A stretch of DNA of 64,000 nucleotides from assembly GCF_004123295.1 (NCBI RefSeq), contig NZ_SDMK01000004.1:1-64000 (forward strand). Reading direction: 5' to 3'. The notes beneath the pieces were generated by a model. That model had not been told where the DNA came from. It saw only the letters and a list, made by a program, of their open reading frames with translations, and did no database searches. Positions within the stretch are counted from its first letter, which is position 1. Each line of letters begins with the position of its first letter. This stretch comes from Silvibacterium dinghuense. GTDB taxonomy: Bacteria; Acidobacteriota; Terriglobia; Terriglobales; Acidobacteriaceae. This document shows positions 22,674-48,885 of this stretch, piece after piece. Both the position numbers and the translations under genes were made by a program.

Positions 22674-22906
22674 CGGGGTATGACTCCTTGACTGATCACA
22701 GGCACACGGCCTCGCGAGCGGCTGAGAGCCGCAGTTCGATAGCCATAAGCACTTATGCGAAGAATTCGCTGACAAGGCCACGCATACGATTCACGCAGCG
22801 AAGTACATCAAGAAGACAGGCAGTACCTAACGATCTGGTTACTTACGTCCAGCCCATAGTATGTCCGCTAGGAACATTTACAACATCAGAAAGAAGAAAT
22901 ATTCAC

Positions 22907-27535: not shown

Positions 27536-27572
27536 GGTTTTCAGGTAAAGTACTGTACCCATTATCTCATCT

Positions 27573-27612
27573 GCGACGATGCCCTTGCCGGAGCCGGCAA
27601 GGGCATCGTCGC
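27573..27612. terminator. Strong perfect hairpin upstream of the split metH
   Basis: GCGACGATGCCCTTGCCGG (27573-27591) is repeated inverted at 27594-27612 with only two bases between the arms. It lies between the end of the DUF3465-like gene and the metH start, both on the minus strand. No T-run follows, so it may be a terminator, a structured leader of metH, or both. Confidence 0.5.
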
Positions 27613-27642
27613 TTGCACGAAGAAAACCAGATCCATCTGCCT

Positions 27643-30544: not shown

Positions 30545-31741
30545 CTAAGGAGCGACGAGCAGAAGAACCACCCCGTGCTTGGGAACTGAAACAGAGTAGT
30601 TCTCAGATGCGATGAGGTCCTTACCCGCCCATACATCCCGCACATGCGCATGCATGGGAACCTGCAGATCATGGAGAGGAACCTGCATGGTATGCGCAAG
30701 CTCGCCGCGATTGAATAGAGCAATCGCCTGACGGCCATGAGCAAGCGGCTTACGCCATATCTCGTAAGGCCCCACTGCGGAGAATCGATCTCCCTGCTTG
30801 CCTAAAGGGTCCTGATCAATGGCAATGGCATCCTTGTTTTCAAGAATGGCGAGATCTTCCGGCTTCACCTTGCTGAGATCATTCCCCGCAAGCAGAGGCG
30901 CGGCCAGCATGGCCCACAAGCTCATGTGCGTCTTATACTCATCGAACGTCATGCCGCCGTTACCAACCTCCAGCATGTCGGGATCATTCCACTGACCGGG
31001 ACGAGCGTATCGCGACAGGCCTGCCTGCTGAAAACCGATGAGAGACATGCGATCGTAACTGTCGGAGATATCGCCTGTAGTGCGCCAGAGTGTTCCACCC
31101 ACTTCCGGACCCCACTCCCATACGCTGTTCATGCCGTACTGGCAGAGGCTGAACACAATCGGCCGTCCGGTTGCGACAAGCGCATCGTGCATTTTCCGAT
31201 AAGCCTCTTTTTGCAATGGAAATGCAGCGGCAACATCTCCTTTACCTGCTGCACGCAACACATCGCCATAACTGCAAAGGTCATACTTGAGGTAATCGAT
31301 ACCCCATGCAGCATAAGTGCGCGCGTCCTGCTGCTCGTGCCCGAGGCTGCCTTCAAATTTCGCGCAGGTCCTGGCACCAGGAGAAGAATAGATACCCAGC
31401 TTCATGCCGCGGGCATGCACATAATCAGCCAGAGCCCTCATATCAGGAAAGCGGCTGTTGCTCTGAATCGTGCCATCCGGCAGGCGCGAACCCTGCCAGC
31501 CATCATCGATATTTACGTAGACATATCCGGCATCACGCATGCCGTTGGAGACCATGGCATCGGCAGCCGCGCGCACATCTGCGTCAGTCACGTGCTGGTA
31601 AAAGTGATTCCAACTGTTCCAGCCCATCGGCGGAGTAGGCGCAAGTGTGGATTGCGCATGCAACGACACAATGGCAAGCATCGAGAGGACGGCCAGGCAG
31701 CAGGAGCGCAAAGAAAGCACAGAACGAAGAACACGGTTCAT
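30545..31741 (-). CDS. GH27 alpha-galactosidase, secreted
   Basis: A 398-residue glycoside hydrolase family 27 enzyme with a Sec signal peptide (SCCLAVLSMLAIVSLHA). Family landmarks are PPMGWNSWNHF at the start of the barrel, YVNIDDGWQ, the nucleophile Asp in DYLKYDLCSYG and the acid/base Asp in WRTTGDISDS. The C-terminal beta-sandwich ends NYSVSVPKHGVVLLLV. It removes terminal alpha-galactose from galactomannan or galacto-oligosaccharides in the periplasm or outside the cell. AAGGA precedes the ATG. It starts 13 bp after the GH28 gene and is the last gene of the hydrolase operon. Confidence 0.93.
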   Translation of the reverse strand: MNRVLRSVLSLRSCCLAVLSMLAIVSLHAQSTLAPTPPMGWNSWNHFYQHVTDADVRAAADAMVSNGMRDAGYVYVNIDDGWQGSRLPDGTIQSNSRFPDMRALADYVHARGMKLGIYSSPGARTCAKFEGSLGHEQQDARTYAAWGIDYLKYDLCSYGDVLRAAGKGDVAAAFPLQKEAYRKMHDALVATGRPIVFSLCQYGMNSVWEWGPEVGGTLWRTTGDISDSYDRMSLIGFQQAGLSRYARPGQWNDPDMLEVGNGGMTFDEYKTHMSLWAMLAAPLLAGNDLSKVKPEDLAILENKDAIAIDQDPLGKQGDRFSAVGPYEIWRKPLAHGRQAIALFNRGELAHTMQVPLHDLQVPMHAHVRDVWAGKDLIASENYSVSVPKHGVVLLLVAP

Positions 31742-31754
31742 GAAAATTTCCTTC

Positions 31755-33401
31755 TTAGAGAGGATGCGAGGTCAGCGCAGCCGGAGCAGCTCCGGCCACA
31801 ACAGCAACAGGAGCTGCAGCCCGCGACAGATCGTTCGCTACAAGAGAAATGCCTGCAGACTCGCCACCTGAAACACGGAGAAAGGCACCGGTCATCGCGG
31901 GAGCACGGTGGCCATGCACAAAGACGTCCTTGCAGTTGTGAAGCTGAATGATAGAGGCAGGAGAATCCGGCGCCGCACTGCGCAGTGCATGTATCTCCAG
32001 ATCGCTTCCATCATCACAGACGAGCGTGGCTCTTTCCTCCGGGGACGACGAGAGGCATTCTAAGTTGTGGAGACGAATACCATGCGCATGACGGATATAC
32101 AGACCAGAAGCCGGAAGTCGGCCGAACATGCGAGCTTCCGGATATTTCTCCGACTGCTCCGGAACTTCTTTCTGTGCCCAACTCGCGCGGCCATGCTCTC
32201 CTGAATAAAAGCTGGAATTCGAGACAACGATATCTTCCACAGGCATACCCGGGAGCCCGGTGATGGAACTGGTAAGAATCGCTCCCGTCGCATGCAATCC
32301 ATCAATGCGTAGATTGCGCAAGGAAGAACCCGCACCAGGTGTTCGTCTGCCCAGACGGATAAAGAGAGGTGTCCGGGCGTTCTCCATACGAATATTCGAG
32401 ATGGTCACACCCTGCATCGCACCGCCATCCACAATCTCGAGCGCAATACCCGACGTCAGTCGCTGATTCAGCGGAGTCGAGTCGTCGTTATAAATCACAG
32501 AATTGCTGAAGACGATATTTTCCACCCGGCCATGTGTAGCCGTACCCACCTTGAAGCCGTTGCAGCAGGTAGAGAGCACGCAATTAGTCACAGTGATGTT
32601 CTTCGTCGGCAGCAATTCTCCATACGGATTTTCGCTCTTGATGCAGATCGCGTCGTCACCTGTAGCGATGTCGCAATCGGAGACGAAGACATTCCGACAG
32701 GCTGTAATGTCCATGCCGTCGGTATTCGGTGCATAAACAGGATTACGCACTCGGATGCCATGGATAAAAACCGATTCGCAGGCTACCGGACGAAGCGTCC
32801 ATCCCGCAGCATTTCTCAACGTGATGCCTTCGATGCGGAGATTCCGGCAACGTGCGAATTCCAGCATCGGTGAAGGACGGCGTTGCGTGGCAGGCTCATA
32901 ATCCCACGCGATCACATCGCCCCATAGATCCTCTCCGCGTGGCGCGGGCCGGCCCTTGCGATGCCAGAAGGCCGCTCCATTCCCATCGATTGTTCCCTGC
33001 CCTGTAACGGCGATGTCCTCAGCATCCAACGCAAAAATCAGGTGCCGTCCGTTGGCATCACCCTCCACAGGCGGCCCAGGATGATATTCATAGTCCTCTG
33101 TGTTCGTGCTTCCGAGCAAAACCGCGCCTGCTTCAAGATGAAGCGTGACACGGCTGCGAAGCATGAGGCCACCGGAGAGAAATATCCCAGGAGTAAGTAC
33201 AACCACGCCCCCACCCGCGTCATGCACTGAGTCAATCGCTCGCTGCAGAGCGTGGGTATTCAGCGTGCGACCATCCCCCCGCGCTCCCATCTCGGATACA
33301 TCGACCACCTGCTTGCTCGAAACCGAGGATACAGCCGGCAGAACCCCCAACGCGGAGAGCCGCAGGAACTGGCGCCTGCCAAGCTCTGATCCCGACATCA
33401 T
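31755..33401 (-). CDS. GH28 polygalacturonase-like enzyme with Tat signal
   Basis: A 548-residue pectin-active family 28 enzyme with a right-handed beta-helix. A twin-arginine signal (GRRQFLRLSALG) is at the N-terminus, followed by the typical start GARGDGRTLNTHALQRAI. Catalytic motifs are NTDGMDI and TGDDAICIKS, which hold the three aspartates. The usual G-H-G region appears as GFKVGTATHGRVENI. It may act on galacturonan or rhamnogalacturonan, which cannot be separated by eye. It lies between GH2 (50 bp upstream) and GH27 (13 bp downstream), on the same strand. Confidence 0.9.
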   Translation of the reverse strand: MMSGSELGRRQFLRLSALGVLPAVSSVSSKQVVDVSEMGARGDGRTLNTHALQRAIDSVHDAGGGVVVLTPGIFLSGGLMLRSRVTLHLEAGAVLLGSTNTEDYEYHPGPPVEGDANGRHLIFALDAEDIAVTGQGTIDGNGAAFWHRKGRPAPRGEDLWGDVIAWDYEPATQRRPSPMLEFARCRNLRIEGITLRNAAGWTLRPVACESVFIHGIRVRNPVYAPNTDGMDITACRNVFVSDCDIATGDDAICIKSENPYGELLPTKNITVTNCVLSTCCNGFKVGTATHGRVENIVFSNSVIYNDDSTPLNQRLTSGIALEIVDGGAMQGVTISNIRMENARTPLFIRLGRRTPGAGSSLRNLRIDGLHATGAILTSSITGLPGMPVEDIVVSNSSFYSGEHGRASWAQKEVPEQSEKYPEARMFGRLPASGLYIRHAHGIRLHNLECLSSSPEERATLVCDDGSDLEIHALRSAAPDSPASIIQLHNCKDVFVHGHRAPAMTGAFLRVSGGESAGISLVANDLSRAAAPVAVVAGAAPAALTSHPL

Positions 33402-33451: not shown

Positions 33452-35788
33452 CTATACCAGGTCAGAGGCCGCTGGAGTGACCTGAATGCTGATCTCCTTC
33501 GTACCCAGACGCGGATGCTTTGCCCGCAGAACCACTGTGCCGGGCTGCCTCGTAGCACGAATCCAGATCGCGCCCGTTCCCCCTATAAGCGAAAAAGGAT
33601 TGTCACCAATAAGCTGCGCCGGGCCGGAGAGATCAAAGACAATCGGGTCGTTAGCAATGGGGCGAATGCGATCGAACTCATCCGTCACACGAAGAACGAT
33701 ACGTGTGGTATCTGCGCCGTCCGCATGGAGCTCGAGGTCATCCGCCGTGGCGTGGAACTTGCGGTCCACGCCACGCCCTGAAAAGCTCTTCGAGATAACC
33801 TGCTTGCCCTGAATATAGCCATCGATGCGCAGGTCACCCCAATCGCGAAGCGACTTTTTATCGAGCGGCACAGAAAAGGGCGGATAGCGAAGATGTGAAA
33901 ACTGCTGACGATCGGGGTCAGCTTCGGCAATCAGCTCGAAACCTGAACCTCGATTCAGATAAAACTTGAGATGATCGCAGTTCGAACAGACGAGCGCCGT
34001 AGTAAAGCCGACATTCTCATCGTTACGCGCCCAATGGAATGCCGGTTCCAGAACAACCTCTTCTGCAGGATCGCACTGCGACTTATAGAATCCTGCCGCA
34101 GGTTTCGGCAGCCGGAAAATATCCGAAACGCCGTGATAGCAGATACGGTCACCACTGCCGAAATTGAAGTGCGTGTTGTAATCAAATGCGCACCAGCCAA
34201 TGCCTCCGGAAAAGCTGGCCGAAGAAGCAATCTGGTCGTGGATACGGGCGTGACGCAGAGTATGCTCGCGCTGCCGCTCTGAGTTATCCGTAGAGCGTGT
34301 AGGAAAAGTGTGCCCGACAAACTCTGTATTCAGATACAACGGCGCTACCGGAGCGTGAAGCGGAAATCCGAAATCGTTGTTGGTGTAAACATCCTCAAGC
34401 AACTCCGAAGCCAGATTGGAGCGAATGCCTCCGGTCTGCCGCGTCTTATCCAGCGCATGAGCAGCAGCGTTCGTCCGCGTATAGAAATCGTGATCGTCCT
34501 TGGACTCATTGATGCGAACGCCCCAAAGAATGATCGAAGGGTGGTTCCAGTCCCGGCGAATCATCCGGCCGACATTATCCACAGCAATATCCTGCCAGGC
34601 CGCGTCTCCGATATGCTGCCAGCCGGGAATCTCCTCCAGCACCAGAAGGCCAAGCTCATCGCAGGCATCGAGAAAGTGACGCGACTGCGGATAGTGCGAG
34701 GTTCTCACGATGTTGCATTTCAGCTCGTGACGCAGAATCCAGGCGTCTCTGCGCTGCACACGAGCCGGCATTGCCTGTCCTACGAATGGAAACGTCTGAT
34801 GCCTGTCCAGGCCCCTCAGCTTCACAATGTTGCCGTTGAGCGAGAATCCTGCAGGAGTAAAATGGGCTTCGCGAAAACCGATGCGCCGGCTGTCCTCGTC
34901 ATGCACCTGCTCACCGCGACGGAGCTGTACATGCACGCTATAGAGCTTCGGATGCTGCAAATCCCACAACTCGATGCCGGACAGGTGTTCCAACGTCACG
35001 ACCTGCGAGCTGCCTCCACCCGCAACCGGCTTAGGAGCAAAGGCTGCCGACTGCTGCGCGAGAACACGATCGCCATCGCGCAATTCCACATGCAACACAA
35101 GGCCTTTCTCGGCCTGCACCGAGGATTCAAAGAAGCTCTCGACCTCGAGCGAAGGAGACGGCGAAAGCGGATCGATGGCACGAGCGACCAGATTCTCAAG
35201 AAAAATCCTGGGAACGATGCGAAGATTCACCTCGCGATAGATACCGCCGAAGGTCATGTAATCCACTTCGTAACCGAAGGGAGGAATATCCTTACGCTCC
35301 GTGGAGTCCAGGTGTACGGCAAGTACATTGTCCCCGTCCCAATTCACGAAGGGAGTCAGCTCAAAGGAGAAGTGCGTATAGCCGCCCTTATATTCACCGA
35401 GGCTGTGTCCATTGATCCAGACCGTAGAGGCCGTCATCGCACCTTCAAAGTCCACGAAGACACGCTGTTCGCGCGCCGAGCGCGGAAGGCGGAAGTGACG
35501 GCGATAGCTGGAGATAAATTCGTAGTCCGCATCATCAAAGCTATGCCAAGGAAGAAGCTTGTTGGTATGAGGCAGAACCACCGGCGCATAGCCTGCATCG
35601 TTGAAATGCGCATCCGTATCTCCCGGCATCACGGCTGGGGAAAACAGCCATCCCTGATTGATCGGGACGATGCGAGGAAGAGCATGCTGCGAGGCATCCA
35701 TCTGTTCTGCCATGCCATGCATGGCCGCAGGCACGAGCGTCGCGCCTGCGGCCAGCCCGGAAGATTTGAGAAAAAACCTGCGATTCAT
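33452..35788 (-). CDS. GH2 beta-galactosidase-like enzyme with Tat signal
   Basis: A 778-residue family 2 enzyme. It has a twin-arginine signal (NRRFFLKSSGLAAGA), a sugar-binding jelly roll (about 60-210), an Ig-like domain and a TIM barrel. The acid/base Glu is in WGVRINES and the nucleophile Glu in YLNTEFVG. A C-terminal Ig-like domain ends near RLGTKEISIQV. It may be a beta-galactosidase; beta-mannosidase or beta-glucuronidase activity cannot be excluded. AGGAG lies just before the ATG, which overlaps the upstream gene stop by 4 bases (ATGA). Confidence 0.9.
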   Translation of the reverse strand: MNRRFFLKSSGLAAGATLVPAAMHGMAEQMDASQHALPRIVPINQGWLFSPAVMPGDTDAHFNDAGYAPVVLPHTNKLLPWHSFDDADYEFISSYRRHFRLPRSAREQRVFVDFEGAMTASTVWINGHSLGEYKGGYTHFSFELTPFVNWDGDNVLAVHLDSTERKDIPPFGYEVDYMTFGGIYREVNLRIVPRIFLENLVARAIDPLSPSPSLEVESFFESSVQAEKGLVLHVELRDGDRVLAQQSAAFAPKPVAGGGSSQVVTLEHLSGIELWDLQHPKLYSVHVQLRRGEQVHDEDSRRIGFREAHFTPAGFSLNGNIVKLRGLDRHQTFPFVGQAMPARVQRRDAWILRHELKCNIVRTSHYPQSRHFLDACDELGLLVLEEIPGWQHIGDAAWQDIAVDNVGRMIRRDWNHPSIILWGVRINESKDDHDFYTRTNAAAHALDKTRQTGGIRSNLASELLEDVYTNNDFGFPLHAPVAPLYLNTEFVGHTFPTRSTDNSERQREHTLRHARIHDQIASSASFSGGIGWCAFDYNTHFNFGSGDRICYHGVSDIFRLPKPAAGFYKSQCDPAEEVVLEPAFHWARNDENVGFTTALVCSNCDHLKFYLNRGSGFELIAEADPDRQQFSHLRYPPFSVPLDKKSLRDWGDLRIDGYIQGKQVISKSFSGRGVDRKFHATADDLELHADGADTTRIVLRVTDEFDRIRPIANDPIVFDLSGPAQLIGDNPFSLIGGTGAIWIRATRQPGTVVLRAKHPRLGTKEISIQVTPAASDLV

Positions 35789-38700
35789 TGTTTCTCCTGA
35801 ATAGATGTCGAGGTTGCGCCATTGCGGTCCGCGCTGAATTCAAGCTCGTTCGACCAGTGCGTCTTCCAGTCATCATGAAAGGTAAAGGAGTTGGTCGTGG
35901 ACACACTGCGTCCGGTCGCAAGCTCATGTGCCGGCCCCTTGTTGTCATTGACGCGGCAGGTGAACTTGATCGTCTCTCCTCGCTGAATACGAGCATAGAC
36001 CTCGGGCATTGCGCTCCAGGGAATGGCAGCTTCGACAATCCGCGTACCGTTTTCGTAGCGGGTTACAAGCTTGCCATCGACAGGACCACCGTCGATAGGC
36101 GAATGCGGCTGGCGCGGAAAGAAATGCTTGCGTGGAATCCCCGGAGCCTGCAAACGCCAGATCTCCGTCCCGCCACCGTACTCCTGAGCAACGGTGTTGA
36201 GAGCGAACTCATAGTCTGTATCCCAGTACGTGATGAAGTGTGGCATCACTCCAGGCGGATGCGGAAGCAGAGGCTTCGCCGGAAGAACATTGAAGGCGAT
36301 CTGCACGTTATCATGCTCACCGCTGCCGGAGGGAACGTCAAAATGCTTGCGATAAGAGAAGTGCCGCACATTCTCAGGCCAGGTCAGCGGTGTACCGTCA
36401 GGCGCCTGCACATGTGTGGGATAAAAATACGAGTCGTCATCCCGCTTTGCGAAGCGAAGCATGCCAGCGTCCGGCGTGGTATCGGCAATCTTTGCGGCAA
36501 AGTAGAAAAACTGATCGTCATAGGCAAGATATGCGGTAGCAAGGTTGCTGCCAGCACCCTGTGTGAAGTCCCGGTAAGGAAGCCAGGCTTCTTCCGTCAG
36601 ATTGGCACCGATCCCGGTGCCGGGAAGAATCTGAGGAAGCACCCCGACCCAGTCCTGCAGATTGCCGTCGACAGAGATCGTGCGATAGGCGATCCGGTTC
36701 ACGTGCAGATCTTCATGCAGCGTGGCCGTTCCCTCTGCGCCCGCATCCACAGAGGCTTCGAGTGGATAGACATTCTGCGGGAGCGGCGTTTCCGGAGGCA
36801 GCGAGAACGTAACCGTGCGCGTCTCATTTGCAACGAGACGAACTCGCTGCGTGTCGAGGGGAAGAGAAAGATTGGTCAGGCGCGCTGAAACATTGGCATC
36901 GATGGGATGGTTCAACACATTCGTCAGTGTCAGGCGAAACGAAGAACCGGCTCCCAGCGGCGTGGTCATATCATGCGCAACAATCTCTACCGGATCGATG
37001 CCATGGATTTCAGCCGAACGTACCGCTGCAAGCAGAGCCGCGAATGATCCATTGCGTCCGTCACCACGAAGAAAATAACCGCTGCCATTCAATGGAACCG
37101 TAAGAACGCCATTCAAAGCAGGCATGGCGTTGCCATTGCTGTCGAATGCTCGCAGGCGATGCTCGCTGTCATGCAAGACAAGATGTGCGTCCGATGCGAT
37201 ATGCACAGAACGAAACACTGTTCGATTCGGATCGTAAAGCGCCTTCAGGTCGCCGAGCACCACCAGCGTGCCATCTTCTTCCGGCTTTGCTGCACCGGGC
37301 AATCCACGAAAGGTAAAGACCCAGGGAAGTCCGTTGGCAAAAAGGAGCCGCTCAAAATCACGCTGGCCGATGAACTTCTGTGTCGCGGCAACTGCCGCGG
37401 CCGGTGCCCATACCTGCACAATGGAAACAGGCTTTCCATCCACAACGAGGTTGTGGCTGTCATAAACGTTCCCCGCATAAATACCAGCGGTACGCGTTAG
37501 TCCCTGGGCGCGCATGGATGCGATCACCGCTGGAAATCGATCCTCGGAATTCGCAATCCAGCTTTCCGTATCCCACACGCGAACCGGCCCGTAAGGGCTC
37601 TTGCGATTTCTCCATGCCGGCTCTTCGGTAGCATCCGCAGCAAGCGGCTGATAGTGAACGCTGACAAAGTCGAGCCACTTCAAAAACTGGTCCGAACCAT
37701 CCGCAAAGAGCTTGTCTCGCGCATTCGATGAAGAACATGTGCCGCCAATAAGAACCTGAACACCCGCCTTCTTGCGTGCCGCTTCCACCCCTTGCGCCAT
37801 GCTGGTGTAAATCTCGCGATAACGAGGAATGTCCGCGCCCCAGCCAGAGATAGACGTGCTCTCCCATGGCTCATTCCATAACTCCACCGCATTCAGATTG
37901 CCGCTCGGCCAGCCATAGCGCATCGCCAGGCGCTCGACCCAGTTTTGAAAATCGGGATCATACTGAGGAAGCCATGCTTCGTCGGATTTACTCTTCAGCA
38001 TCGTGCCCTCAGGTGAGAGCCATGGACGCGGACGGCCAAGCGGCTGCGTCACCGTCGAACCATTCTGCAATGTGAGCATCACCGCTACATCATGCGTCTT
38101 GGCCCAGCCCATATAAGCATCGAGGTCACGCTCGAGCGTCGCCGCTTCAGGAGCAGAAGCAGGAGCATAGGATGCAGGAAGACGCATCGCCTTTACCCCG
38201 AGCCGCTCGAACAGGGTGAATACCTTTTCGTTCATGAACTGCGGCCAGGTCGCATCAAGGGCATAGGTCGGAAATTGCACCCGACCATTATCCGGAGAGA
38301 TCGAGCGCGCCAATGCCGCGGCAAAGCTCCTGCCGCGTCCTTCCACATCGGAGACAAGCACATAGCCACCAAAGCGCTCCGGCACCTGAGGCACAACAAC
38401 AACATCCTGCGTGCCTCCCGGCGCAAGATTCAGATGAAATGGGGTTGAGCCTTCCTTCGCGATCCGTGAAACCTGCGGCTTCCACACCTCTCCGGCTGGC
38501 ACTTTCGTTGCGTAGCTGATGAGCTCCATCTCGCCATTCGCTTCCATCGGGTGCGATGTCCGGTTCTTGAAGCGAAACGTAAGCGAGATGCTCTCTCCGG
38601 GCAGCACACTATTTACCCCGGTTGATTGCCCAGCAAAGACGGCGATCTCTTCTACCGAGTAGTCCTTCGCCTGCTGATCCGCAGCGAGGCCAAAGACATC

Positions 38701-38820
38701 CGCATAGCCTGGCATCCGAGAACCCGTCACCATCTGTGCGAGAACAGGAAGCGGAAAAGCAATCGAGAGAGCAGCAAGGCAGGAAGAGGCAAGCAGTACA
38801 AATCGGCGTTTATTTGCCAT
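35785..38820 (-). CDS. Secreted clan GH-A glycosidase with CBM9-like C-terminal domain
   Basis: About 1,011 residues from ATG 38820, immediately before a signal peptide (RFVLLASSCLAALSIAFPLP); the GTG at 38856 overlaps the GH92 gene. The middle (about 170-500) is a TIM barrel of clan GH-A type. The acid/base motif AVELWNEPW has Glu near residue 317, and the nucleophile motif VRVWDTESW has Glu near 419, most like GH39 or unassigned GH-A families. The last 280 or so residues (from RTISVDGNLQDWVGV) look like a CBM9/DOMON-type carbohydrate-binding domain with ATAYLAYDDQFFYFAAKIAD. The substrate is unknown. It sits in the operon between GH92 and GH2, overlapping both. Confidence 0.78.
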   Translation of the reverse strand: MANKRRFVLLASSCLAALSIAFPLPVLAQMVTGSRMPGYADVFGLAADQQAKDYSVEEIAVFAGQSTGVNSVLPGESISLTFRFKNRTSHPMEANGEMELISYATKVPAGEVWKPQVSRIAKEGSTPFHLNLAPGGTQDVVVVPQVPERFGGYVLVSDVEGRGRSFAAALARSISPDNGRVQFPTYALDATWPQFMNEKVFTLFERLGVKAMRLPASYAPASAPEAATLERDLDAYMGWAKTHDVAVMLTLQNGSTVTQPLGRPRPWLSPEGTMLKSKSDEAWLPQYDPDFQNWVERLAMRYGWPSGNLNAVELWNEPWESTSISGWGADIPRYREIYTSMAQGVEAARKKAGVQVLIGGTCSSSNARDKLFADGSDQFLKWLDFVSVHYQPLAADATEEPAWRNRKSPYGPVRVWDTESWIANSEDRFPAVIASMRAQGLTRTAGIYAGNVYDSHNLVVDGKPVSIVQVWAPAAAVAATQKFIGQRDFERLLFANGLPWVFTFRGLPGAAKPEEDGTLVVLGDLKALYDPNRTVFRSVHIASDAHLVLHDSEHRLRAFDSNGNAMPALNGVLTVPLNGSGYFLRGDGRNGSFAALLAAVRSAEIHGIDPVEIVAHDMTTPLGAGSSFRLTLTNVLNHPIDANVSARLTNLSLPLDTQRVRLVANETRTVTFSLPPETPLPQNVYPLEASVDAGAEGTATLHEDLHVNRIAYRTISVDGNLQDWVGVLPQILPGTGIGANLTEEAWLPYRDFTQGAGSNLATAYLAYDDQFFYFAAKIADTTPDAGMLRFAKRDDDSYFYPTHVQAPDGTPLTWPENVRHFSYRKHFDVPSGSGEHDNVQIAFNVLPAKPLLPHPPGVMPHFITYWDTDYEFALNTVAQEYGGGTEIWRLQAPGIPRKHFFPRQPHSPIDGGPVDGKLVTRYENGTRIVEAAIPWSAMPEVYARIQRGETIKFTCRVNDNKGPAHELATGRSVSTTNSFTFHDDWKTHWSNELEFSADRNGATSTSIQEKQ

Positions 38821-41125
38821 GAACAGGTCCCATTGTTGTTTTGTTCGGCTCCGCACTCATCTCAAACGTAAGCGTGGAACCATTCACGATATCTTCGTGA
38901 CGAAATTCATACGTGAGCAGCTGGACGCCATCCCGCTGCACAGAACGGACATACAAACTGCGCGCAGAACTGCCAGGCGCGAGGATCGTAAAGTTTTTCC
39001 CATTGTCCTGATGAATCACGATACGAGTGAAGAGCGGAGAGCCGATGCTATACATAGGTGTGCCGGGACATTCCGGATAGAAGCCCATCGCACTCAACAC
39101 ATACCAGGCAGACATCTGCCCGGCATCGTCGTTGCCCGGGAGCCCATCTGGGCCTCCGTGAAAGTTCGCAAGCATGATCTGGCGCACGCGCTCCTGCGTC
39201 TTCCACGGAGTTCCGGCATAGTTATACAGATAGGCGATGCCATGACTCGGCTCGTTCCCTTGATCGTAAAGTCCCTTATCGAACAGCCCATCCAGCTTTT
39301 CGATAAATGTCGCCGCTCCGCCGCTGGCCTGAATCAACCCTGAAATATCCTGCGGCACAAAGAAGGTGTACTGCCACGGAAGGCCCTCGGTGATATACGG
39401 CACCGGCTTCGATGGATCGAAGGGCGTAATCCAGTTTCCGTTGGCGTAACGTCCGCGTACAAAGCCTGTCGACGGATCGAAGACTCTTCTCCAGTTCGCC
39501 GAACGCTTGCGCAACACATCGGCATCTTCCGTATGTCCCAGCGCTTCGGCAAACTGAGCGACTACGGAATCGTCATACGCATATTCCAGCGTGCGAGAGA
39601 CCTGCTCCCGATGATGGAAGGCATCGAGCACTTCATCCTCGAGCGGAACGAAGCCATATCGCATGTAAGAGGTGAGCGCGCGGCGCCCCTTGCCATCCAC
39701 ATACTGAACCCGCGGCGGAGTTACAAAAGCATTCTGCCGGATAAGGCGATAAGCCGCTGCAACGTCAAAGTCGCGCAGCCCCTTGGCGTAAGCATCCACG
39801 ATGACCGGCGCAGCATGATCGCCGATCATCTCCGAGGTATAGCTGTTCCATGTAGGAAAGATAGGGAGAAAGCCTCCCTGCTCACCCTTGTCGATCAGGC
39901 TCTGCACCATCTGCTGGTCGCGCTGCGGCTCAAGAATAGTCAGCAGGGGATGAAGTGCGCGGAAGGTATCCCAGAGCGAGAAGTCATCGTAATACGCAGA
40001 ACCGCCTGCGGTACGATGCAGCTTGCCCTCCTGAGCAAAGCCGCGATAGCTTCCATCGACATCGCTGACCATTCGCGGCGCGAGTGAGGCATGGAAGAGC
40101 GCGGTGTAGAAGACGGTCCGTTCTTCCGGCGTTCCTCCCTCGATCTCAATCCTTCCCAGCAGATGCTTCCAGGCCTTTTCTGTTTCCTGCTGAACTTCGT
40201 CAAAATTCCATCCCTGCTCTTCCGCATCCAGGTTCTTCTCTGCTTCCTCCACGCTCGTGAACGACGTACCTATTTTGACGAGAACGGGTGACGATGCATT
40301 CCCTGCAAAGGTGACAAAGGCCCCCGGCTGCGTGCAGGGTATCTTCGTTTTCAATGCATGCTGCGATACGTCTTTGCCGCACCATGTCCCGAAATCAGCA
40401 GCCTTCTCCTGATAGCGCAGGGCAAAATATCCGCTGAAGCCCGCAGACTTTCCCGCTCCCTGATAGATGCGCACCACAGGGTTATAACCGACAATCTCAT
40501 GCCGATCCGGTCTTACTTCTACGAATCCCTGCCCCGCTCTTACATTCGGCTGCACCACCAGGTGCCGAACTCCCGCTGCAGGATACGTAATCCTCAACAT
40601 TCCTGCCCGAGTTGTACCCGTCAGCTCGACCTTCGTCTGATAGTCCTCGAGTAACACGGAGTAATAGGCAGGCGACATCACCTCAGAATCATGAGAAAAA
40701 CGGGAAGCGCGCGCCGAGGGGGCGACCTTGAGGTCTCCCACCACAGGCATCAGCGTGACGCTGCCGTAGTCCTGGGTGCAGCTGCCGCTCAACCAGTGGC
40801 TGCCGCGAAATCCAGTGATATGGCTGTCTTTGTAATAGTAGGGGGACAGGCACTTATTTTCCGTAGCCTGTGTCTCCGGGGTCCAGCCTGTCATGCCGAA
40901 GGGCATGCCCACCACCGGATAAGTCTGGCCATCGTACGAAGTACCGATGTGCGGATCGACCAGTGAGTATGGATCGCCGTTTCCTGGATGCGACTGAGCC
41001 AATGCCGCACATGTTCCGCTCAGCACCCACAAAAGCACAGTCGCTCGCATGAATAAGGCATGCGAAGTCCTAGATGAATTCTGCCTGGATACTCTGCGCT
41101 TGCCTCGAGGCAGCCAATACTGCAC
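38810..41125 (-). CDS. GH92 alpha-mannosidase, secreted
   Basis: A 771-residue family 92 enzyme of usual length, a calcium-dependent exo-alpha-mannosidase. Landmarks are the N-terminal VDPHIGTSYDGQTYPVVGMP, HWLSGSCTQDYGSVTLMP, the long helical barrel, EPSHGIAYLYNYAG and GNDDAGQMSAWYVLSAMGFY. The GTG at 41125 has a strong ribosome binding site (AGGGGAG) and would give a basic leader before the signal peptide (ATVLLWVLSGTCAALA); ATG 41050 is an alternative. It is the first gene of the five-gene hydrolase operon, after the terminator of the TonB receptor gene. Confidence 0.92.
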   Translation of the reverse strand: MQYWLPRGKRRVSRQNSSRTSHALFMRATVLLWVLSGTCAALAQSHPGNGDPYSLVDPHIGTSYDGQTYPVVGMPFGMTGWTPETQATENKCLSPYYYKDSHITGFRGSHWLSGSCTQDYGSVTLMPVVGDLKVAPSARASRFSHDSEVMSPAYYSVLLEDYQTKVELTGTTRAGMLRITYPAAGVRHLVVQPNVRAGQGFVEVRPDRHEIVGYNPVVRIYQGAGKSAGFSGYFALRYQEKAADFGTWCGKDVSQHALKTKIPCTQPGAFVTFAGNASSPVLVKIGTSFTSVEEAEKNLDAEEQGWNFDEVQQETEKAWKHLLGRIEIEGGTPEERTVFYTALFHASLAPRMVSDVDGSYRGFAQEGKLHRTAGGSAYYDDFSLWDTFRALHPLLTILEPQRDQQMVQSLIDKGEQGGFLPIFPTWNSYTSEMIGDHAAPVIVDAYAKGLRDFDVAAAYRLIRQNAFVTPPRVQYVDGKGRRALTSYMRYGFVPLEDEVLDAFHHREQVSRTLEYAYDDSVVAQFAEALGHTEDADVLRKRSANWRRVFDPSTGFVRGRYANGNWITPFDPSKPVPYITEGLPWQYTFFVPQDISGLIQASGGAATFIEKLDGLFDKGLYDQGNEPSHGIAYLYNYAGTPWKTQERVRQIMLANFHGGPDGLPGNDDAGQMSAWYVLSAMGFYPECPGTPMYSIGSPLFTRIVIHQDNGKNFTILAPGSSARSLYVRSVQRDGVQLLTYEFRHEDIVNGSTLTFEMSAEPNKTTMGPVHGK

Positions 41126-41301: not shown

Positions 41302-44300
41302 CTAGAAGGTGAATTCTCCACCGATGCGAATGATGCGAGACATACCCGCGGTCTGCGACTGGTTGAACTGGCCAAAGCTCGCCGAGGGGTTGGGTGTCAC
41401 TGTTCCCGTGACATTAGAGGTCGTAATCGATCCGTCGAGCACGTGGTTCGCGCCGTAATATACCGGATGATTGAAGACATTGCTGAAGGTGGCATTGAGG
41501 TTGAGATGATAACGCTCGCCGAATGCCACCCCCTTGCTGAATTGCATATCGAAGAGAGCCTCGCGCGGGCTGCGCGCCCCGGCCAGCAGGCGCGGTGCAT
41601 TACCGAGAGCCGGATTGTTCAGCGTGCCCGGAACCGCAAATGCATCCGGATTGAGATACGGCGTGAAGTTCGAATTCAAGGCATTTTTCTTCCAGTTCTT
41701 ATTGATCAGGTGAGCGCCCGGAACGAGATTGGGGCGCAGCGTGTAACCAGAGGGCAATGCACTGGCCGTGCAATACTTCGCGGTACCGGTGGCCGTGCAG
41801 CCATTCGTGCCTGTAGGGGTGACAGAAACAAAATAGCCCACGGTTCCCAGCGTGACGGGCGTAGGCAGTCCGTCAGCATATGTGGCGATGCCAGCCGTCG
41901 AGATATTCCCGATAACCTGGTTGAGAAATCCATTGTGCGTATCGAGCCACTTTCCACGGCCCAGGGGCAGCTCATAGGTGTATCCGAGCTTAAGGCGGCT
42001 GGGCTGATCGAAGCTCGACACAGACCACTCCGCCTTCGGATTGTAGGGATTCTGCAGTACCGCGGAGCCGAACCCCCCAGAGTTAGCTCCAGTATTGGTA
42101 TCCGGAACATCATCCATGGTCTTCGACCATGTGTAGTTAGCAAGCAGTGAGAGCCCATAGCCGAAACGCTGGTTCACGCTGAGATAAAAGCCGTTGTACT
42201 CCATCGTGCCGCCGCGCGGATAAATCTCCGGAAGCGCCTGATTGTAGAAATTCTGGTAAGGATTCAGCCGCTGCAGATTAGTCTCCGAGACCAGAGCGCC
42301 ATTCTGCGTAATGCCATAAGCATTCGGCGATGAAGCCCCAAGATTCTGATGGCTCTGGATCGCCTCAATCAGGGTACCGAGCGTCGGGGTATTGAGTGCA
42401 TTCGTAAACGGCCCGATCAGATGCGTACCCTTGCTACCGTTGTATGTAGCCTGAAGAAGAGTCAGCGGAGCAGGCTGATATTGCACCGTAAACGACCAGC
42501 TCTGCGTATAAGGAACAGCACTGCTCTGCGAAACGAACACAGGAGCCAGCCCCGTGGAGTAAAGAATCGGTCCACGATTACCGTTCAGCGCGGTATAGGC
42601 AGAGGTGAGCGCACCCACCGGATTGGTAATGTAGTTGACCGTGGAATTCGGAGTGACACCACCGCTCTGGCCACCAACAGCCTGAGAGGACACATTGAAA
42701 TCCGGGTCAGGAATATTCTCATACCCGGTGAGCGGCAAACGCTGCAGCGTGTATGCTGCCCGCACCGTCATACGCTCATTCGGCGAGTAGGCAAAACCCA
42801 GCCGTGGCTCAAAGCCCTTGTAGTTGATCGGCCAGAGCGTGCGAGGGTTTCCGCATGCATCCGAGAAGCAATAGGCCGTGGTCGTATCCAGAAGGCCGTT
42901 GAGATTACCCGGCGTATTCAGACGGATATAGGCCTGGTTATTGAACTTCTCTGCGCGCGGCGTCTCTAGCTCCCAGCGCAGGCCGGCATTGATGGTGAGA
43001 TGCGGCGTTACGCGCCAGTCATCCTGGAAGTACCCCGCATAGTAGCGCCAGCGATAGTATCCGGGAACTTCTACCGGAGTATTGCTGAAGGCCGAGATGG
43101 TACCGAGAATGAATGTGGCCAGAGGCGCACCACCGGAAGATCCATTGTTCGTCTGTGCGCCAAGGAAGTTATATTTTCCGCCTGTGGTTCCGCTGAGATC
43201 GTACTGGTTCGACTGAATCCAGCGAATGTCTGTGCCGAACTGGAAGAGATGCTGCCCATGCGTCCATGTAACATCGTCCCCGGCGATAAAGTTCTGGTCC
43301 GCCTGGATGGCCGCAGTCGCAGTCCCCATCTGCATGGTGTAAGACACGCCATTCTGGTTCAGATTGCCGAGACTGGGAAAGCCATATCCCGAAGTAGCCG
43401 GAGTCAGGCCATAAGCTGCGGCGAAATCCTTGTTCTGCGTGATAGGAGGAGGCAGACGCTGTTGATTCACTCGCATGAACGAATAATGAAAGGAGTTGAC
43501 AATGTTATTCGTGAAGACATGCGTATAGCCCACGGCGATATCGTGGGTCCGTGCCGAATCCGTAGGCACGATCGTCAGCGGATTCGACGCGGAAACAGCA
43601 AAGAACCGGTTTGCGACAACTGGAATTACCGTATAGCGGACAAAGAGCTGATCTGAATTGCTGAAATGCTGGTCGAAACGCATGGAGTAGCGATTATCCA
43701 CATTGTTGACACCGCGCTTATAGGTCGCATTCGTGCCGTCATTCTGCGAAGTCGCCTGAGCATTGTCGAACTTTATATATGGACCAGGATTGCTCGGCGT
43801 CGGGAACAACGAAAGAACATATTGCGCAAAGGGGTTCTGCGCCAGCTGAGCCGAAATATCGTCATTCGGGATGGCACGGATCAGAGAAGCATCGTAAGGG
43901 CCATCAGGAAAGCCAGCCGCATTCACTGCGGACTGATAATTGATAGCGCCGATACGCGGGGCAGCAAGAGCCGCGGCATAGCCGGAAGATTTCAGGATGC
44001 TCTGATTTAACAATGCCAGCGAGTTATGGATATGGCCCGCGAGTTCATCCGGCGTGGGGAAGATACCGCGAAAGCCAAAGGCGTTCTGCATACGGGCCGG
44101 CTCAACACCGACGAAGAAGAAAGTCTTATCCCGATGCGGATACACTTTGGGAATCCAAACAGGTCCGCCGAGATAGAACCCGTAGTAGTTTTCATGCAGC
44201 GCATTGCTCGTGGTACCGCCGTCAGGAAAGGCATTGAAGTAAGGATCGGTATGACGATATGTCACCCCGCCGTGATAATCCTTTGTGCCGGCAGCGCTGC

Positions 44301-45126
44301 TCTGCACAATAACGCCTCCGCCCGTGCGGCCATACTTCGCCGAGAGCCCGGTCACGATCACGGTTGTTTCCTGTACTTCGCGTCCGGAGAGATTCACACC
44401 CGTACGCGCGTAACTGGCCTGCGTTACATCCGAGCCGTCCACAACCACTGAGCTGGTTCCAGGAGGCGCGCCGCCTACCACGATGCTGGCGCCAGGCACC
44501 ACATAGCTGGTATAGGCATTCGGATTTTCCGTTGAAATTCCGCCCGGCTGCAACGTATCTCCCTCCACACCGGGAGCGAGCAGCGCAGCCTCGAGCGAAC
44601 TGCGTTCCGGGTAGGGGAGATCCAGAACGAGCTTATGATCCACGGTCGTCGTAACATCCGACTCGCTCTTGGTCAGCAGGTCGACATTCGCATTCACAGT
44701 CACTACGGTGTTCGCCTTGCCAACCTCGAGCAAAATATCGAGTGAGGTGAGTCCCACACCGGCTACCGTGACTGACTTCATCACCTTCTGCTCGAAGCCA
44801 GGTGCCGATATCCCCACGCTGTACTCGCCGGGATTCAACGAAAGCACCTGGAAGGCTCCTTCGTCATTTGCCTGCGTTGTCTGCTGTACGCCGGTCGCGT
44901 TGCTGGTGACTTCGATCGAGGCATGGGGAATGACCGCACCATGCGCATCGTGCACCGTGCCTCCAATCGAGCCCTGCCCTGTTTGTGCCTGGAGCATCGC
45001 CGGCAACATCAAGACAATGCTCATAGCCAGCCATAAGCCCGGCCGGAAAACCATCCGCAGACCTTTCATAAAACCACCATGTCCAGCGATTGCCGCTGTC
45101 TTCTTATGTTTGTTTCCAAAAAGCAT
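41302..45126 (-). CDS. Oar-like TonB-dependent outer-membrane receptor
   Basis: A 1,274-residue receptor. After a signal peptide (LWLAMSIVLMLPAMLQAQ) comes a carboxypeptidase-regulatory-like domain (GGTVHDAHGAVIPHASIEVT), the plug (about 125-260, with SVVVDGSDVTQASYA and KYGRTGGGVIVQSSA) and a large beta-barrel ending in a terminal Phe (IRIGGEFTF). This is the common acidobacterial receptor class, here next to glycan hydrolases and thus likely an oligosaccharide importer. No SusD-like partner gene is present. The ATG at 45126 has a strong ribosome binding site (GAGGAGG). Confidence 0.92.
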   Translation of the reverse strand: MLFGNKHKKTAAIAGHGGFMKGLRMVFRPGLWLAMSIVLMLPAMLQAQTGQGSIGGTVHDAHGAVIPHASIEVTSNATGVQQTTQANDEGAFQVLSLNPGEYSVGISAPGFEQKVMKSVTVAGVGLTSLDILLEVGKANTVVTVNANVDLLTKSESDVTTTVDHKLVLDLPYPERSSLEAALLAPGVEGDTLQPGGISTENPNAYTSYVVPGASIVVGGAPPGTSSVVVDGSDVTQASYARTGVNLSGREVQETTVIVTGLSAKYGRTGGGVIVQSSAAGTKDYHGGVTYRHTDPYFNAFPDGGTTSNALHENYYGFYLGGPVWIPKVYPHRDKTFFFVGVEPARMQNAFGFRGIFPTPDELAGHIHNSLALLNQSILKSSGYAAALAAPRIGAINYQSAVNAAGFPDGPYDASLIRAIPNDDISAQLAQNPFAQYVLSLFPTPSNPGPYIKFDNAQATSQNDGTNATYKRGVNNVDNRYSMRFDQHFSNSDQLFVRYTVIPVVANRFFAVSASNPLTIVPTDSARTHDIAVGYTHVFTNNIVNSFHYSFMRVNQQRLPPPITQNKDFAAAYGLTPATSGYGFPSLGNLNQNGVSYTMQMGTATAAIQADQNFIAGDDVTWTHGQHLFQFGTDIRWIQSNQYDLSGTTGGKYNFLGAQTNNGSSGGAPLATFILGTISAFSNTPVEVPGYYRWRYYAGYFQDDWRVTPHLTINAGLRWELETPRAEKFNNQAYIRLNTPGNLNGLLDTTTAYCFSDACGNPRTLWPINYKGFEPRLGFAYSPNERMTVRAAYTLQRLPLTGYENIPDPDFNVSSQAVGGQSGGVTPNSTVNYITNPVGALTSAYTALNGNRGPILYSTGLAPVFVSQSSAVPYTQSWSFTVQYQPAPLTLLQATYNGSKGTHLIGPFTNALNTPTLGTLIEAIQSHQNLGASSPNAYGITQNGALVSETNLQRLNPYQNFYNQALPEIYPRGGTMEYNGFYLSVNQRFGYGLSLLANYTWSKTMDDVPDTNTGANSGGFGSAVLQNPYNPKAEWSVSSFDQPSRLKLGYTYELPLGRGKWLDTHNGFLNQVIGNISTAGIATYADGLPTPVTLGTVGYFVSVTPTGTNGCTATGTAKYCTASALPSGYTLRPNLVPGAHLINKNWKKNALNSNFTPYLNPDAFAVPGTLNNPALGNAPRLLAGARSPREALFDMQFSKGVAFGERYHLNLNATFSNVFNHPVYYGANHVLDGSITTSNVTGTVTPNPSASFGQFNQSQTAGMSRIIRIGGEFTF

Positions 45127-45487: not shown

Positions 45488-46657
45488 TCAAACGCGATCC
45501 GGGGCTCGCTTCATCCACGCATCATTCGGATAAATCTTGTTCACATTCTCCGGAGTGAGGAGTTCGTGCTGCACGAAGACCGCGGGAGCTACTGGCTTAC
45601 GCCTGAGAATATCGAGAGCCAGCTGAATAATCTGCGCGCCGTAGGTTTCAGGAAAATAGGCCACGGAACAGACCAGGCGCGAGGAAGAGCGCCGCATTTC
45701 TTCCCTGGCCGCAAGGCTGCCATCCTGGCCTGCAATCGCGCAGGCCCGCTCGAGGCCTGCCTCGCGAAAGGCCTGCAGCGCAGCCAGCGCGGTGGAGTCG
45801 TTCACTGCACCAACCAGCGCTCGCTCGGGCCGCTTGCGGCGCAGGTGCTTACGCACCAGATCGAGTGTGGCTTCAAATTGGCCACCCTTCGTATCGTAAT
45901 GATGCGTAGGAAGGTTGCGGCCTCCGGGAAGCAATTCACCAATGCCATCGACAATACCGGTGAGCCGCGCATTTAGAAGCGAGCCGGCAACATCCACACC
46001 AAGAAGAATCAATTGCTCCGGATTGGCCTTCCAGTGGCGTGTCGCCCATTTCGCCAGATGGCGTCCTGCCATGCGGCCCGCTTTATAGTTATCCGCGCCA
46101 AAGTAGACAGCTCCAGGATGAGGAATATCGAGCGCGATAAATGGAATACGCGCATCGGAAAATTTGGCGGCAATCTGCGCTGCCACGGCCACATTAATTT
46201 GCGAGTCCACCACCAGATCCACTTTTTCCGCGATGAATTTATCCGCGTTCTGGAGCGCAATCCTCGGGCTGAATTCGTTATTCGCAATCAGAAGATCCAC
46301 ATTGGCAGCATTCGCCGCCACCACCAGGCCATCCGTGACAGTTGCCGTAAATGGAAGCAGGTTGCTCTGCGAGGCGTAGCCGATCCGGAAACGCCGCGAA
46401 CGCGAGACCTGGATCGAGGAACGATAGCCCTGCTTGCCCGCGCGCTCGAGCATGCGCGTCTCCACCAGAGTTTCCAGCAGGCGAAACGCCGTGGCCTTGT
46501 GCAGGCCGGTACGCGCAGCCACCACGCGGAGATCGAGAATCTCCGACGTAGTTGTGAAGGCGTTGAGGATATCCACGGCACGCACCACGGACTGGATGGT
46601 GTAGGAACGCTTGCGTCGTGAACCTTCTTCCGGCTCTACGCTGTCATGTTTTGTCAT
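45488..46657 (-). CDS. Chimeric regulator: IclR-type winged helix plus sugar-binding-protein domain
   Basis: A 389-residue protein. Residues about 18-75 are an IclR-type DNA-binding domain (SVVRAVDILNAF, then LRVVAARTGLHKATAFRLLE). Residues about 92-370 resemble a type 1 periplasmic sugar-binding domain as in LacI/RbsB proteins, in place of the IclR effector domain. Visible signs are LLIANNEFSPRIALQNADKF, VDLVVDSQINVAVAAQIAA, FGADNYKAGRMAGRHLA and CAIAGQDGS. No signal peptide precedes it, so it should be cytoplasmic. It lies between the divergent uronate genes and the TonB receptor, so it probably senses a sugar or uronate and controls one or both. The architecture is unusual. Confidence 0.82.
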   Translation of the reverse strand: MTKHDSVEPEEGSRRKRSYTIQSVVRAVDILNAFTTTSEILDLRVVAARTGLHKATAFRLLETLVETRMLERAGKQGYRSSIQVSRSRRFRIGYASQSNLLPFTATVTDGLVVAANAANVDLLIANNEFSPRIALQNADKFIAEKVDLVVDSQINVAVAAQIAAKFSDARIPFIALDIPHPGAVYFGADNYKAGRMAGRHLAKWATRHWKANPEQLILLGVDVAGSLLNARLTGIVDGIGELLPGGRNLPTHHYDTKGGQFEATLDLVRKHLRRKRPERALVGAVNDSTALAALQAFREAGLERACAIAGQDGSLAAREEMRRSSSRLVCSVAYFPETYGAQIIQLALDILRRKPVAPAVFVQHELLTPENVNKIYPNDAWMKRAPDRV

Positions 46658-46923: not shown

Positions 46924-48138
46924 ATGGAGCAGACCTGGCGCTGGTTTGGACCGGGCGATCGAGTCACACTGCGAGACGCGAAAGAGGCAGGCGCGGAGGG
47001 CATCGTCACCGCGCTCCATGAAGTTCCCGCCGGCGAAGCATGGCCGGTTGAGCTCATTCGAAAACGCAAAGCGGAGATTGAAGCCGCAGGATTGCGCTGG
47101 AGCGTCGTCGAAAGCCTCGACGTCACAGAGCGCATCAAAATGCGCGCCCCGGGATGGCAGCGTGACACGGAAAATTTCAAGACGTCTTTGCTAAACCTGG
47201 CCGCCTGCGGCATCCGCACCGTGGCCTATAACTGGATGCCTCTGTTCAGCTGGACGCGAACCCATTTGCACGCGCCCGTGCCCGGTGGAGGCTTTACCCT
47301 CCGCTTTGATGCGCTCGCGTTTGCCGCATTCGATCTCTATCTTCTCAAGCGCAACGGAGCAGAGCAGGAGTGGGGAGAAGCGGCCAGTCAACAGGCGCAA
47401 GCTTATTTCCAGGCAATGACGCCTCACGAAAGAGATGAGCTCCTTGAAACCATCCTGTGCGGCCTGCCCGGCGGCAATGGCCGCTACACTCTGCAGGGAG
47501 TCCGCGATTTGGTCGAGCAATATAACGGCCTGGATGCAAGCAGCTTCCGCGAGCATGCAGGAGAATTCCTGCGATCTGTCTGCCCGGTAGCGGAGGAACT
47601 CGGAATGCGATTAGGCGTTCACCCCGATGATCCGCCGAGACCCCTGCTTGGGCTACCTAGGATCGTAAGCACGGCAGAGGATCTGGACTGGCTTATGGCA
47701 CAGTCTGCACTGACAGCAAATGGAATCACCTTCTGCACAGGCGCTCTCGGAGTAAGAGCAGATAACGATTTGGCTGCCATGGTGCACCGTTTCTTACCGC
47801 GCATTGCATTCTTCCACCTCCGCTCGACACAGCGTGAGAACACTCTGGTCAAGGCAGGTAGCCAGCCGCTGGAGAGCTTCTTTGAAGCAGCCCACCTCGA
47901 AGGCGATGCGGACCTCATCGGAATCCTGCTTGAGGTTGTGAAACAAGAGCAGTGTGGAGAATGCGCAAAGCTTCCCTTCCGCTCCGATCATGGCCAGGAG
48001 CTATTGAATGATTGTGAGCGCGCAGCGGCTCCAGGGTATCCGGCAGTGGGGCGGTTGCGTGGGCTCGCAGAGCTTCGGGGAGCCATACGCATGGCAGAAC
48101 GCATAACGGCGAAGGTGGAACACGATGAAGCCATATAG
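46924..48138 (+). CDS. uxuA: Mannonate dehydratase
   Basis: A 404-residue enzyme that dehydrates D-mannonate to 2-keto-3-deoxygluconate in uronic acid catabolism. It starts MEQTWRWFGPGDRVTLRDAK. The family signature MRLGVHPDDPPRPLLGLPRI is present, with IKMRAPGWQRDTENFKTSLL and ANGITFCTGALG giving further metal-binding and active-site regions. GGAG lies 7 bases before the ATG. Its end overlaps the dehydrogenase gene by 14 bases. Glucuronate released by the GH67 enzyme at 57 kb is a plausible source of its substrate. Confidence 0.94.
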   Translation: MEQTWRWFGPGDRVTLRDAKEAGAEGIVTALHEVPAGEAWPVELIRKRKAEIEAAGLRWSVVESLDVTERIKMRAPGWQRDTENFKTSLLNLAACGIRTVAYNWMPLFSWTRTHLHAPVPGGGFTLRFDALAFAAFDLYLLKRNGAEQEWGEAASQQAQAYFQAMTPHERDELLETILCGLPGGNGRYTLQGVRDLVEQYNGLDASSFREHAGEFLRSVCPVAEELGMRLGVHPDDPPRPLLGLPRIVSTAEDLDWLMAQSALTANGITFCTGALGVRADNDLAAMVHRFLPRIAFFHLRSTQRENTLVKAGSQPLESFFEAAHLEGDADLIGILLEVVKQEQCGECAKLPFRSDHGQELLNDCERAAAPGYPAVGRLRGLAELRGAIRMAERITAKVEHDEAI

Positions 48139-48877: not shown

Positions 48878-48885
48878 ATATGCAC

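Follow-up and report, generated by a model that had tools for sequence, protein, structure and literature searches.

A rare, conserved clan GH-A glycosidase of Silvibacterium dinghuense outside the tested families, with a possible role in the use of mannose-containing glycans

The window analyzed here is a stretch of 64,000 nucleotides of the Silvibacterium dinghuense genome (Acidobacteriota; contig NZ_SDMK01000004.1, positions 1 to 64,000). On its minus strand, at 35785-38820, it carries a gene which, together with its protein, is named GHX in the following. GHX was found to be a rare, conserved and unassigned glycoside hydrolase (GH) of clan GH-A. Judged from its sequence, it is not a member of any curated family tested, a comparison that covered Pfam, NCBIfam and the sequences of the Protein Data Bank (PDB), with the CAZy families lying outside it. 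New here is the context of GHX in nine acidobacterial loci, with a recurring receptor, one regulator and two unrelated sugar modules. A preliminary description of this DNA had noted a large GH-A glycosidase without a clear family and had suggested a role in a complex galactose- or mannose-containing glycan. The observation was confirmed, its interpretation partly supported, and the new subfamily it considered is possible.

The GHX gene and its distribution

35785..38820, minus strand: GHX, predicted exported clan GH-A glycosidase of 1011 amino acids (open reading frame, 10-sequence alignment, dN and dS)

Read from the ATG, the frame comprises 1011 residues, whereas the mechanical open reading frame is longer and reaches up to a GTG at 38856. 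In the comparison with the homologue L003 from an Acidobacteria metagenome-assembled genome (MAG; G449), the nonsynonymous divergence (dN) was 0.125 and the synonymous divergence (dS) 1.84; silent changes were saturated in 4 of the 9 pairwise comparisons of GHX. Full-length relatives with 56-81% identity were identified in eight other acidobacterial genomes. Based on these relatives and on the dN and dS values, the open reading frame is a real gene, and the WNEP and WDTES motifs noted in the preliminary description are present.

GHX is a single-copy gene in its own genome. It was found in 2 of 61 near genomes by protein search, as a full-length copy in 3 of 396 genomes of the phylum, and in 9 of the 398 genomes from the bacterial family (own genome included in each count), and is therefore rare. 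The search of the family yielded 11 matching genomes, from which G582 and G657 were left out of the count of nine since they contain short partial matches. Short partial matches of 38-88 residues in G446, G380 and G250 were likewise left out of the counts. The proteins encoded by L036 (G599) and L003 are identical, and the broken frame of L004 was used only as separate pieces.

Scanning GTDB contigs revealed L003 and a relative with 46% identity in a MAG of the Sumerlaeota, which also carries a second copy (L017) with 25-26% identity to GHX. In total, 7 of 40 Sumerlaeota genomes match GHX, namely this MAG and six genomes matching only in the region behind the barrel. No GHX relative was found in the plasmid records searched, and none was encoded by the 127 stretches of viral contigs that matched a pattern. 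In the published literature, no report of a GHX family was found among the matches listed, with subscription papers and CAZy outside the coverage.

Active site, family comparisons and domain architecture

The motifs WNEPWE (N316-E317-P318) and WDTESW (E419) were identified in GHX, with the two glutamates 102 residues apart. The residues R213, N316, E317, H389, D417, T418, E419 and W421 are invariant in all 10 aligned sequences. GH-A enzymes show the residue order R, N-E, H and E, and since the invariant residues of GHX follow this order, the assignment to clan GH-A is supported. The codons of the proposed catalytic residues are located as follows:

37870..37872, minus strand: codon of E317, proposed acid/base, in WNEPWE (invariant in 10 of 10)
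37564..37566, minus strand: codon of E419, proposed nucleophile, in WDTESW (invariant in 10 of 10)

A model of the barrel alone was built with 11 sequences. The mean predicted local distance difference test (pLDDT) was 55 and the predicted TM score (pTM) 0.55, and only the better parts of the model were relied on. Blocks of the first half have mean pLDDT values of 74-94 and the others of 32-59, and nearly everything from residue 416 to about 540 lies below 50. In this partial model, E317 appears just behind a confident strand at residues 309-314 (strand 4 in our numbering; loop pLDDT below 50) and E419 behind a short strand at residues 414-416 (pLDDT under 50), which would place both glutamates behind strands in clan GH-A order. 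A full-length model from 4 sequences (mean pLDDT 43) was not used for the structure search.

Using VIA-align (VIA), the barrel model was aligned to GH5 and beta-glucosidase barrels at Z scores of about 12-13, with a root-mean-square deviation (rmsd) of 3.6-5.2 over 207-252 residues, the second half of the model being of low confidence. PslG, GH5 and beta-glucosidase barrels lie within about 1 Z (12.1-13.2 among the 50 matches listed, where the absence of a family does not mean its exclusion). Structure prediction, which the preliminary description had suggested as a check, thus yielded a barrel that aligns to GH-A barrels at low confidence overall. The modelled structure argues for clan GH-A and indicates nothing firm about the family.

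No family was found for GHX in NCBIfam at E 0.1. The Pfam family Cellulase/GH5 (PF00150) matched GHX with 22.5 bits (curated cut-off 23.5) at profile positions 17-173 of 272. GHX could be read as a divergent GH5 enzyme of an unnumbered subfamily, working like other GH5 beta-glycanases or beta-glycosidases. Nine of the 10 aligned sequences match Cellulase at E 0.01 or better, and L003 is the only one to pass the cut-off (24.8 bits), over about half of the domain. Among PDB sequences, the barrel profile finds its best solved relative in a GH5-type exo-beta-1,3-glucanase (E 0.001, first third of the profile), and many GH5 structures are found at the VIA scores given above. However, GHX and seven other sequences remain below the Cellulase cut-off and L040 has no match. 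In addition, the matches cover about 120-200 residues and stop before the nucleophile, so that GHX has the clan fold and a half-domain similarity around the acid/base in common with GH5, whereas the nucleophile half is without a match. Because beta-glucosidase and PslG barrels score equally high, the likeness is probably clan-wide, and we regard membership in GH5 as rather doubtful.

A second reading takes GHX for a GH39-like endo-beta-glycosidase akin to PslG, which would cut bacterial exopolysaccharide, perhaps its own or that of a neighbor. PslG of Pseudomonas aeruginosa, which we take to be a GH39 enzyme, was the first Foldseek match of the partial model (E 8.9e-09) and no more than 1 Z below the top VIA match, yet the identity is 13-16% and no sequence match to it was listed. 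The superposition is also poor, with a TM score of 0.39 and an rmsd of 15 in Foldseek and an rmsd of 10-11 over about 290 residues in VIA at a similar Z. Pfam GH39 (PF01229) was found at E 0.015-0.18 in three sequences and GH39 xylosidases at E 0.19-0.28 in profile searches of the PDB (0.27 with the barrel profile); every one of the sequence matches to GH39 lies below the cut-off (GHX 12.2 bits, best sequence scanned 14.6 bits, cut-off 26). PslG is reported to act as a retaining endo-beta-glucosidase on a polymer of mannose, rhamnose and glucose (PMC11912335). For Granulicella exopolysaccharides, mannose, glucose, galactose and xylose are described as constituents (PMC5259719). The GH28 enzyme encoded near GHX fits an exopolysaccharide poorly, and this reading appears improbable.

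GH148 was considered and rejected for GHX, since the motifs INNEN and VTEYN of its member EngU are replaced by WNEPWE and WDTESW. Like GHX, EngU is reported to be a GH-A enzyme that fitted no existing family and carries a carbohydrate-binding module (CBM); it differs in a CBM4 inserted in the barrel and in glutamates that are 342 residues apart, compared to 102 in GHX (PMC5725463).

A strong full-length match to a characterized family, which would have contradicted the preliminary description, was found neither in Pfam and NCBIfam nor in the PDB sequences, where the single GHX protein gave one chance-level match. The following domains were delimited:

38737..38820, minus strand: signal-peptide-like start, residues 1-28, ending VLA before QM (sequence by eye)
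38281..38736, minus strand: beta-rich domain at the N-terminus, approximately residues 29-180 (strands of the full-length model, which is of low confidence)
37306..38268, minus strand: catalytic barrel, approximately residues 185-505 (model of the barrel and structural comparison; end at low confidence)
37051..37278, minus strand: post-barrel beta domain, about residues 515-590 (alignment with Sumerlaeota proteins)
36685..36993, minus strand: immunoglobulin (Ig)/NEW3-like domain, about residues 610-712 (alignment with Sumerlaeota proteins)
35821..36684, minus strand: CBM9-like tail, about residues 713-1000 (sub-cut-off Pfam match, CBM74 profile match, Sumerlaeota profile comparison)

Q29 and M30, which follow the signal-peptide-like start, are conserved in most of the aligned GHX sequences. 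The N-terminal domain of the preliminary description is present and beta-rich, and its profile found no relative among solved structures. The name NEW3 is based on a match of the Sumerlaeota paralogue L017 to NPCBM_assoc below the cut-off (E 0.025). For the tail, Pfam CBM9_1 (PF06452) reached 13.7 bits in GHX and 18.2 bits in the best relative (cut-off 23.4, reached by none of the sequences scanned), with 2 of the 10 aligned sequences at E 0.01 or better. The tail profile weakly matches a CBM74 protein of known structure (E 1.2e-4, 71 positions); together with the comparison with Sumerlaeota proteins, this nevertheless supports the CBM9-like tail proposed earlier.

For this comparison, L023, L025 and L027 were taken from the six Sumerlaeota proteins matching in the tail region; L026 was excluded as its frame is cut off. 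With hhalign, the profile of 10 GHX sequences matched this set with a probability of 99.5 and an E of 1e-22 over 598 columns, from barrel to tail. The barrel alone gave a probability of 46 (E 2e-4) and the tail alone 97.3, thus most of the signal comes from behind the barrel. Both Sumerlaeota proteins that were scanned are above the CBM9_1 cut-off. The set has a barrel with an NEP motif, a post-barrel domain with D-x-x-G-N, an Ig-like domain and a CBM9-like tail in common with GHX, and it differs at the nucleophile, where VSEFGW or ITEMGW was found. The paralogue L017 has DTESW as in GHX, but is only 25% identical. The view that the domain combination cannot be assigned is thereby weakened: on sequence evidence it is not unique to GHX, and no function name was found for the Sumerlaeota counterparts.

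Two further Sumerlaeota proteins, L022 and L024, have the same kind of tail. By eye they show WGEPE at the acid/base position and no clear nucleophile motif, so that their barrels are perhaps inactive or altered in mechanism. Due to these seemingly changed motifs they were excluded from the set.

Gene neighborhood of GHX in nine acidobacterial loci

The position of GHX between GH92 and GH2 genes, which had been reported before, was confirmed at the family level. The overlap of GHX is 11 bases with the end of the GH92 gene and 4 bases with the start of the GH2 gene, and because of this spacing the three genes are likely to be transcribed together as one unit. The neighboring genes in the window are:

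30545..31741, minus strand: GH27-type enzyme (Pfam alpha-galactosidase A/Melibiase_2)
31755..33401, minus strand: GH28, rhamnogalacturonidase/polygalacturonase-like (Pfam; NCBIfam below equivalog cut-offs)
33452..35788, minus strand: GH2 (Pfam; a beta-galactosidase as best NCBIfam model, well under the equivalog cut-off)
38810..41125, minus strand: GH92, alpha-mannosidase family (Pfam E 7e-174; TIGR01180 651 bits, above cut-off)
41302..45126, minus strand: outer-membrane receptor, CarboxypepD_reg and beta barrel, TonB-dependent-like as predicted from its domains (Pfam)
45488..46657, minus strand: regulator with IclR-type helix-turn-helix (HTH) and periplasmic-binding-type sugar sensor (Pfam)
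46924..48138, plus strand: UxuA, D-mannonate dehydratase (TIGR00695 432 bits, above cut-off)
48125..48877, plus strand: short-chain dehydrogenase/reductase (SDR), overlapping uxuA (aldose dehydrogenase as top NCBIfam model with 207 bits, cut-off 341)
48886..49800, minus strand: SMP-30/gluconolactonase-like lactonase, convergent to uxuA and SDR (Pfam SGL E 9e-68; no NCBIfam family)

A periplasmic-binding-type sugar sensor is usually paired with a LacI-type HTH; for the regulator at 45488-46657, no family was found in NCBIfam. UxuA, SDR and lactonase (46924-49800) are candidates for a complete oxidative route of mannose (or uronate).

With 15 proteins as queries, tblastn was run against the window and against eight fetched stretches, each about 47-67 kb long. 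Seven of the nine loci (window included) carry a receptor closely related to that of the window (47-85% identity in the six others), whereas the receptor homologue in G671 and G526 shows about 25% identity (at most 36%, in a short stretch). GH92 is also present in seven loci, and no homologue was found in the fetched DNA of G344 and G746 (52-54 kb each). The GH28 gene was identified at about 50% identity or more in four loci, namely the window, G027 (65%), G584 (62%) and G668 (two pieces with 74 and 50%); G344 has a 30% match. GH27 was found in the window, G027, G671 and G526, and GH2 in the window and G027.

The IclR-HTH/sugar-sensor regulator is encoded in five of the nine loci (window, G449, G344, G746 and G027), always with a sugar module. 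In two of them (window and G449), UxuA, SDR and the SGL lactonase lie near the regulator. In the other three, they are replaced by a module of an isomerase, an aldolase-like protein and a PfkB kinase. The one isomerase scanned is above the cut-off of Pfam Lyx_isomer, and its best NCBIfam model is D-lyxose/D-mannose isomerase (251 bits, cut-off 350); no isomerase of this type was found in the genome of S. dinghuense. The aldolase-like protein (339 residues, L044:8017-9033, minus strand, named by eye) lies between isomerase and kinase and has homologues in L018 and L019; it gave no match to Pfam, NCBIfam or solved structures at the thresholds used. Elsewhere, a LacI-type regulator adjoins GHX in G584 and G668, with GH31 and GH35, or GH3, close by, and TPR and FG-GAP/ASPIC genes occur at the loci of G671 and G526.

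The isomerase family was detected in 14 of 398 genomes, 3 of the 9 with GHX and 11 of the 389 without it (Fisher p 0.0026), and in all three GHX genomes it is located within the GHX locus. As a control, one stretch of 4-20 kb around the isomerase was examined for each of the 11 genomes without GHX (a second place in G540, the twelfth in total, was excluded); no match to GHX, GH92 or GH2 was listed for these stretches.

Three observations stand apart. A 1878-residue protein with 13 Ig-type stretches (He_PIG) is encoded at 17148-22781 (minus strand), and proteins like it are encoded close to GHX in G584 and G668. The B12-dependent methionine synthase at 23712-27748 (minus strand) is split into two overlapping reading frames, the S-methyltransferase followed by the pterin, B12 and activation domains. 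The GH92 homologue at L003 5698-8011 lies in two overlapping frames, a frameshift of the gene or of the MAG assembly.

Proposed substrate and mechanism

GHX is proposed to be a clan GH-A beta-glycosidase that is exported and works with retention, probably at the cell surface or in the periplasm, with E317 as acid/base and E419 as nucleophile. Its CBM9-like and Ig-like modules may hold or position the glycan. It would cut a mannose-containing heteroglycan, the fragments of which could enter via the partner outer-membrane receptor and, in the locus of the window, be trimmed by GH92, GH2, GH28 and GH27. The IclR-HTH/sugar-sensor regulator would sense the sugar that is set free. This sugar is most likely D-mannose, and it may be used by an oxidative route (SDR, lactonase and UxuA) in S. 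dinghuense, while three relatives may use it via an isomerase.

D-mannose is proposed since it is the simplest sugar common to the mannonate and the D-lyxose/D-mannose isomerase routes. Of the two sugars named in the preliminary description, mannose has more support from the neighborhood and galactose less. In the window, mannose could be supplied by GH92. As GH92 was not found in the fetched DNA of G344 and G746, GHX may itself be the enzyme that releases mannose or fragments ending in mannose. Enzymes of clan GH-A act with retention of configuration, mostly on beta-D bonds; therefore a beta-mannosidic or a neighboring beta bond is the natural guess. An acidobacterial exopolysaccharide is, beside plant gums, a plausible target, whereas an N-glycan was set aside as GH28 is a poor fit. 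For the oxidative route, a study on a Thermoplasma enzyme cascade describes the conversion of mannose via mannonolactone and mannonate to 2-keto-3-deoxygluconate by aldohexose dehydrogenase and mannonate dehydratase (PMC6901390).

Several findings weigh against this proposal. Four of the nine loci carry neither sugar module in the fetched DNA. The Fisher test of the association between GHX and the isomerase treats related genomes as independent. In 3 of the 11 control loci the isomerase, aldolase-like and kinase trio occurs without GHX, once with the regulator, which indicates that the sugar module is a separate cassette joined by the GHX loci; a joined cassette fits a shared sugar, while the linkage does not prove the release of this sugar by GHX. 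UxuA also acts in glucuronate breakdown, the SDR is below its NCBIfam cut-off and UxaC is encoded elsewhere in the genome, so the module of the window may serve uronates. Furthermore, the barrel model has low overall confidence and its loops carrying E317 and E419 are below a pLDDT of 50. A published D-lyxose isomerase is reported to show under 2% activity on mannose (PMC8378251).

The main alternative to the mannose reading is a uronate-rich glycan: GHX would be a GH-A enzyme of a plant or fungal polymer such as pectin side chains or glucuronomannan gum, and UxuA and SDR would serve the use of glucuronate. The GH28 genes of four loci, the UxuA match above the cut-off and the presence of UxaC agree with this. 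Conversely, three other loci with the regulator have a D-lyxose/D-mannose isomerase instead, and the SDR is most similar to aldose dehydrogenase and adjoined by a lactonase. We consider this alternative unlikely; glucuronomannan would fit both readings.

In our assessment, the chances are about even that GHX is a beta-glycosidase with a mannose-containing heteroglycan as its substrate, as we infer here, and acts with receptor, regulator and sugar modules as proposed. The more specific claim is tentative and on balance rather doubtful: that GHX founds an unnumbered clan GH-A family cutting a beta-linked mannose-containing glycan, and that in the loci of this family two unrelated modules of D-mannose catabolism replace each other under a single IclR-HTH/sugar-sensor regulator. 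Soils are rich in acidobacteria, and many of their glycan enzymes have unknown targets. GHX, with its recurring receptor partner and interchangeable sugar modules, offers a directly testable guess at a substrate and could define a glycosidase family.

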